From Lachnospiraceae bacterium (GTDB lineage Bacteria; Bacillota; Clostridia; Lachnospirales; Lachnospiraceae), in the NCBI GenBank assembly GCA_024691015.1, contig JAILOD010000329.1:1-43161 (forward strand): a stretch of 43,161 bases of DNA. Reading direction: 5' to 3'. The notes below the pieces were generated by a model. It did not search any database and was not told the DNA's origin. It saw only the letters and a program-made list of their open reading frames with translations. This document shows positions 26,663 to 42,393 of this stretch, one piece after another; positions within the stretch are counted from its first letter, which is position 1, and each line of letters begins with the position of its first letter. The position numbers were made by a program, and so were the translations under genes.

Positions 26663-26691
26663 TTGACAATTTAAAACCTTTGTCATATAAT
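26663..26691 (+). promoter_or_regulatory. perfect consensus sigma-A promoter
   Basis: TTGACA (26663-26668) - 17 nt - TATAAT (26686-26691). Confidence 0.88.
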
Positions 26692-26697
26692 CAACTC

Positions 26698-27100
26698 ATA
26701 ACAAACGAGGGAACAAAAATAAACAAAGCCAAAGGAGATGATTCCAATGTATCGAGGCTTTAGTCCAAACATTTAAGAAAAGGAGGTACGGTCCACCAGA
26801 CACTTAAAACTTGGTAGTTTATTTTAAATCCTTATAATCAATTACAGAAAGGTTTTAAAGCTGTAGTTGTTCGAAAGTTAAATGTACATGACAACAAGCA
26901 GAAAAGGCATCAGCGAATATAACGGGGCCGATTATATGATCAGATCCTTGCCAGAGAGCAGAGGAAAAAGAGCCCGTCAGGATGAGATGAATATTTGTGA
27001 TGGTGCAGGACTCGGAGGTATAGTCCAATGGGAACGTTAGTTGAGTCAGAAAGCTAAGAGGGCGTCGAAGAAGTAGGGTTCGGCGTCCTCTTAGTTTATG
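26698..27100 (+). ncRNA. putative large structured non-coding RNA (family not identified)
   Basis: About 400 nt with no substantial ORF, driven by a perfect promoter and ending in a 16-bp hairpin; contains several complementary segments. Family needs a covariance-model search. Confidence 0.65.
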
Positions 27101-27106
27101 TGTTTT
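27054..27106 (+). terminator. terminal hairpin of the putative ncRNA, followed by U-rich sequence
   Basis: CTAAGAGGGCGTCGAA-GAAGTAGGG-TTCGGCGTCCTCTTAG (16 bp incl. two G-U) then TTTATGTGTTTTT. Confidence 0.7.
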
Positions 27107-27202
27107 TAAAAACCTGTGGAAGATACGGTCTTTTTTATGGTATCATAGGCAGGTATTTTTTATGCAAAAAATCCCGATGGCAGGATATGAATGGAGAGAC
27201 TT

Positions 27203-42289: not shown

Positions 42290-42393
42290 CTCTTATTACG
42301 AGTGATGGAGATGCAAAGGATCTGTGAAGTCACGACAACCCCCTGAAATTGAGGAAGGTGCCAACCTTGAGCGAGTAAATCGAACAATGAGAG
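42290..42393 (+). ncRNA. SAM-I (S-box) riboswitch aptamer
   Basis: CTCTTAT...ATGAGAG closing P1, ACGAGTGATGGAG, GTGAAGTCACGACAACC, GGAAGGTGCCAACC; directly upstream of metK. Confidence 0.92.

Follow-up and report, generated by a model that had tools for sequence, protein, structure and literature searches.

Comparison of the window (the whole stretch of 43,161 nt of Lachnospiraceae DNA that was analysed) with related genomes identified an RNA gene of ~400 nt at positions 26697 to 27097 on the forward strand. On comparative sequence evidence, it belongs to an RNA family that is specific to Lachnospiraceae and so far uncatalogued. The same comparisons delimit the modules of the RNA, its terminal minigene, its autonomy and its taxonomic range, and we infer strong expression, ribosome binding and a physiological effect. 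An earlier reading of the letters alone (hereafter the sequence-only reading) had proposed an abundant structured RNA. This was partly supported: an RNA gene with at least one stem is present, but the conserved parts are ribosome-binding-site (RBS) modules and a terminal minigene. The RNA is thus not wholly non-coding, nor is it chiefly one large rigid fold. To our knowledge, no RNA class has a design of start-blocked, repeated ribosome sites with a terminal minigene.

The gene is delimited by a promoter, a terminator and family homologs. The promoter, TTGACA-17-TATAAT (26663 to 26691, + strand; TTGACA at 26663 to 26668, TATAAT at 26686 to 26691), matches the consensus at 12/12 positions, as the sequence-only reading had stated, and the RNA start was placed from promoter spacing. 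A 12/12 promoter was also found upstream in 76 of 142 motif-matched relatives and in none of the shuffled controls. The terminator (27054 to 27107, + strand) consists of arms at 27054 to 27069 and 27079 to 27094 forming 16 pairs (2 G-U), a loop of 9 nt and a T-rich tail, TTTATGTGTTTTT, in agreement with the 16-bp terminal hairpin and U-rich tail described before; it had been missed by the program scan because the loop limit of that scan was 8. It overlaps the stop codon of the terminal minigene, and the same arrangement was found in relatives. The folding energy of 26695 to 27106 gave z = -2.82 against shuffles, with 0/100 shuffles as low.

Within the gene, the first module (26731 to 26776, + strand) contains a Shine-Dalgarno (SD) sequence, AAAGGAG (26731 to 26737), and a minigene running from ATG at 26747 to TAA at 26776 (MYRGFSPNI-stop). 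Module A, TTTAAGAAAAGGAGGTACGGTCCACCAGACACTTAA (26772 to 26808, + strand), has its SD, GGAGG, at 26782 to 26786 and CCA at the start-codon position. The terminal module (27014 to 27057, + strand; GGTATAGTCCA) has GGAGG at 27014 to 27018 and a minigene from ATG at 27028 to TAA at 27057 (MGTLVESES-stop). The earlier description of the locus as gene-free has to be corrected. It contains a 52-aa ORF at 26882 to 27040, which is interrupted by stops in relatives and is not conserved as a protein, and two SD-led minigenes (26747 to 26776 and 27028 to 27057), the second of which has strong comparative evidence.

The distribution of the family was analysed in 299 Lachnospiraceae genomes, one per genus; many of the relatives are metagenome-assembled genomes. 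In a blastn search, 32 other genomes matched, almost all on 26763 to 26811 and a few on 27015 to 27052, and TCTAAGnAAAGGAGGTAYRGWCCRCCrraaAcrTAAG was derived as the consensus of module A. When GTDB genomes were scanned for an exact pattern, at least 119 loci matched, which with few exceptions bore Lachnospiraceae or related Clostridia in their titles; as the pattern fixes CCRCC, the invariance of this part among these loci is partly imposed. A sequence-only model of module A (R1; E up to 0.01, with rough E-values) matched the window's own genome at E=6e-12 and 139/299 genomes of the family, a lower bound, since many AUG- and AAR-type copies are missed. Genomes with R1 or the pattern GAGGTAYRGWCCANTG together amounted to 156/299. 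Cultured commensals that carry a copy include Claveliimonas bilis, Mediterraneibacter catenae, Blautia schinkii and Enterocloster. About half of the family is without a detectable copy, which argues that the function is not essential. Outside Lachnospiraceae, R1 gave weak matches only in a class-wide sample of 391 genomes. A search of phages and viral contigs gave no match, and a phage origin was rejected on this ground.

Among 67 nonredundant RNAs, the length ranged from 193 to 680 nt (median 364). Two copies ~850 nt apart were seen in L058, and two complete RNAs in tandem in L193 and in G112:C57; in side-by-side double copies, each copy had a promoter and a terminator.

The modules follow a common plan: an SD-like GGnGG or AGAGG, then UAYRGWCCA, then CCR, AAR or AUG at start-codon distance. 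Many modules carry CCR or AAR instead of a start codon, and others have AUG followed by 1 to 3 codons and a stop. GGAGG occurred in 67/67 RNAs against 23 expected, in a set that had been selected on GGAGG. Module A (AAAGGAGG, with CCR in place of a start codon) often lies ~30 to 110 nt from the inferred RNA start. In CC-type modules, the displaced downstream UAA usually shifts by one base and falls out of frame. Translation of these modules from a non-AUG codon was rejected on this ground; the frequent one-base shift indicates an RNA consensus rather than a translated frame, and CC-type modules are probably not translated. Tandem arrays of ~5 to 11 modules were found in four genomes: 5 or 6 modules in L181, ~8 in L184 at a spacing of some 56 nt, and up to ~11 in L187 and L197. 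Many of the L187 modules read AUG AAA UAG. In L197 (G157:C59), many read AUG UAC ACA UAA, and a second such array lies upstream. Further, a conserved hairpin motif, AUAUGACGAGAAAGUAU (core GACGAGAAAG), was present in 26/67 RNAs (for example L005 and L044), where chance would give 0.2 RNAs.

At its 3' end, the RNA has a module with a minigene of 5 to 10 codons, the stop of which lies directly against the terminator. So that ORFs would not be picked by their stops, GAGGTAYRGWCCANTG alone was searched in the 299 genomes without a stop requirement; this gave ~69 sites, compared with 6 when the pattern was reversed as a control. Nearly all inspected sites lead ORFs of 2 to 17 codons, the two exceptions being a trxA-like gene and a chance site within another gene. 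The former is a thioredoxin-like gene in L214 (G148:C17:15461) with the same RBS, GGAGGTATAGACCAATG, and is the sole real gene seen with it. In 36 nonredundant cases, likewise taken without a stop requirement, the first in-frame stop fell at the terminator base (-15 to +6 of the hairpin base) in 34, compared with 12 and 15 in the other two frames; shuffles gave a mean of 14.3 and a maximum of 24 in 500. These frame counts are good evidence, not proof, of translation of the terminal minigene. Indirect support comes from its alternating starts (AUG 19, UUG 16, GUG 1) and its use of all three stops (UAG 19, UAA 10, UGA 7). The terminal module thus has an SD, a start and an in-frame stop within ~10 codons, under selection. 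Homologs of the terminal peptide in the genus read MGSLVETER-stop, MGCLDDSVN-stop and MGCLDESNS-stop, and the terminal minigenes of L235 and L240 differ by silent changes only. At the position of the first module, L231 and L232 encode MYNG-stop and L229 encodes MYRSVNLNIL-stop.

Structural conservation was examined in a genus search of 48 genomes, in which L229 and most of L231 to L242 share the plan of the window copy. Since whole RNAs of the genus aligned poorly in their middle part, only named stem arms were tested. The nested stem GGGGC/GCCC enclosing TCCTTGC/GCAGAGGA (26924 to 26975, + strand), with arms named by hand, was present in 11/12 genus members compared with 13% of shuffles. One pair of the inner stem varies among the members (U-A, A-U or C-G), and in the outer stem one G-C pair is replaced by U-A; these compensatory changes uphold the stem as proposed from the sequence. 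The 5' hairpin AAAGCC/GGCTTT (26725 to 26761, + strand), read directly around the SD and start of the first minigene, has a counterpart, AGCCG/CGGCT, at the same place in L231 and L232, a comparison of three sequences only. Of the other proposed pairings, GGACT/AGTCC was seen in a few close relatives but not beyond them, and no comparative support was found for GTTGT/ACAAC. The check for homologous intergenic sequence and covariation thus found both, and the RNA hypothesis survived it. Across genera, the variable middle is the least conserved part of the RNA.

These features can be read as ribosome capture. To 30S subunits or initiating ribosomes, the modules would offer a strong SD in the fixed context GGUAYRGWCCA. 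Modules with CCR or AAR would allow 30S binding without initiation, whereas on those with AUG translation would end within a few codons, so that ribosomes would be captured and almost no protein made. Such binding would protect the RNA against 5' exonuclease in the manner of STAB-SD elements, and would also titrate initiation capacity. We tentatively propose, as the leading reading but at somewhat less than even probability, that the family is a free-standing RNA to which 30S subunits bind with no protein being made, so that it serves as a decoy or gains stability itself. Binding of ribosomes or 30S subunits as such is, by analogy, fairly likely, because start-less SDs bind in Bacillota mRNAs and minigenes do so elsewhere. 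The bolder proposal must be considered doubtful; according to it, this is a new RNA class that uses minigenes and tandem start-less SD modules to capture 30S subunits or initiating ribosomes, and free initiation capacity in gut Lachnospiraceae is set in this way.

Precedents exist for parts of this design. A start-less SD stabilises RNA in the case of STAB-SD in the cry3A 5' UTR (PMC3997798, PMC4113751). Like these Bacillota elements, module A is a strong SD near the RNA 5' end with no usable start codon at the usual distance; STAB-SD, however, is a bare SD in a protein-coding mRNA, whereas the present family is a free-standing RNA with the fixed GGUAYRGWCCA context, sometimes repeated. A minigene SD has also been described as protecting mRNA, according to a passage in PMC8708949 that cites earlier work. 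Regulatory minigenes (axe-txe mg2 and the LEE1 and LEE4 mini-ORFs; PMC8708949) similarly consist of an SD and an ORF of 2 to 10 codons without a functional protein. They act in cis on a following gene, which the family RNA lacks, and here several minigenes may occur per RNA, with the last abutting the terminator.

Two other readings accept the modules and assign them a different role. In the first, the chief competitor, the RNA is a sponge: the modules mimic an RBS hairpin and titrate a translational regulator (protein or small RNA), as CsrB-type RNAs do with CsrA, and CCR in place of AUG would keep binding while preventing translation. An SD by itself would not require UAYRGWCCA to be so constrained, which suggests a second reader of the module site and keeps the sponge a strong competitor; conservation of GGUAYRGWCCA beyond the SD, the variable copy number with arrays and the free-standing form, as in sponges, also suit it. 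With CsrB/RsmZ, the family shares a free-standing RNA of 200 to 700 nt, a variable number of RBS-like modules and an own terminator. However, its module core is UAYRGW, with UACAGU and UACAGA variants lacking GGA in the loop, instead of the GGA-in-loop motif of CsrA, and it has a translated-looking terminal ORF. CsrA (PF02599) was detected in 70/139 RNA-positive and 84/160 RNA-negative genomes (p = 0.73); half of the RNA-positive genomes were without detected CsrA, and with no co-occurrence of RNA and CsrA, a CsrA sponge was rejected and CsrA was excluded as a general partner. No conserved target gene recurred with the same RBS, the inspected loci having given the one trxA-like case and the chance site, and the terminal minigene is left unexplained by a sponge, which we consider a possible but minority explanation.

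In the second, the SD modules and minigene do no more than stabilise the RNA, as a STAB-SD roadblock to RNase J, while the function lies in the variable middle, which might act by base pairing with mRNA or through the structured GGGGC/GCCC domain. This would fit the strong start-less SD that most copies have close to their 5' end, the covarying domain in the genus and the GACGAGAAAG motif, but the middle is precisely what is least conserved across genera, the modules multiply in arrays, and one or two of them would suffice for stability, so that we regard it as rather unlikely. Control in cis, with translation of the minigene acting on the adjacent terminator and hence on the downstream gene, appears very unlikely. 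The minigene stop abuts the terminator and the downstream gene is co-directional in 52/68 cases, but it is convergent in 16/68 and differs by lineage (named by eye: HAD hydrolase, GH3-like, WYL-like, DegV-like, ABC-type), with the window's HAD gene recurring at few loci only; a general cis leader was rejected for these reasons. Upstream genes were divided 37:36 between strands. Since neighbour strands and families vary, the locus behaves as an independent RNA gene rather than as a leader tied to a single gene, in agreement with the free-standing gene proposed in the sequence-only reading. As regards a type III toxin-antitoxin RNA (ToxI), a tandem-repeat RNA directly upstream of a ToxN-like gene, the observation is likewise that the neighbours vary with lineage. 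By eye, a membrane-anchored glycoside-hydrolase-3-like gene lies downstream of the RNA in L009, L012, L033, L041, L045, L046, L058 and L061, and an asnA-like gene lies upstream of it in Mediterraneibacter. A known class (raiA, 6S, RNase P, SRP, tmRNA, OLE, ROOL or T-box) or a CsrB-type RNA in diverged form would match the size, promoter and terminator of an abundant housekeeping RNA, but is highly improbable given the missing CsrA association and the searches with cmscan against all 4227 Rfam families (Rfam 15). No family covered the locus at the gathering score, only chance matches appeared there at E up to 5, and 20 relatives gave only chance matches at E up to 10. Moreover, 6S RNA (RF00013) is a separate gene elsewhere in 11 of 12 relatives tested, including RNA-positive ones; neither 6S nor 16S was found in the window's own fragmented draft genome. 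The earlier reading had seen no hallmarks of tmRNA, RNase P, SRP RNA, T-box or 6S; in agreement with it, the RNA falls in none of the known large classes. Like OLE, ROOL and raiA, the family comprises large uncharacterised standalone RNAs of Bacillota, but it has no Rfam sequence or structure match, is modular, and is structured only locally.

A description of the family was absent from the open-access PMC literature, subscription papers lying outside that search. A human-microbiome screen lists thousands of candidate structured RNAs (PMC8040213), and a fragment of the family may figure, unstudied, among them. In Clostridium phytofermentans, which also belongs to Lachnospiraceae, no start site in the genome is stronger on cellulose than that of an unannotated transcript, suspected to be an ncRNA, that lies downstream of cphy2658 (PMC5171806); this transcript might be a member of the family. 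A consensus-promoter RNA that is absent from Rfam, yet present in about half of the genera sampled from this abundant gut family, would be a notable gap in RNA annotation. The family could offer a simple test of an RNA titrating initiating ribosomes, or a route to a factor that reads RBS hairpins, and would aid the reading of intergenic reads in gut metatranscriptomes. Elsewhere in the window, a SAM riboswitch (RF00162) was detected at 42290 to 42393 on the forward strand, with 57.1 bits, exceeding the gathering score.
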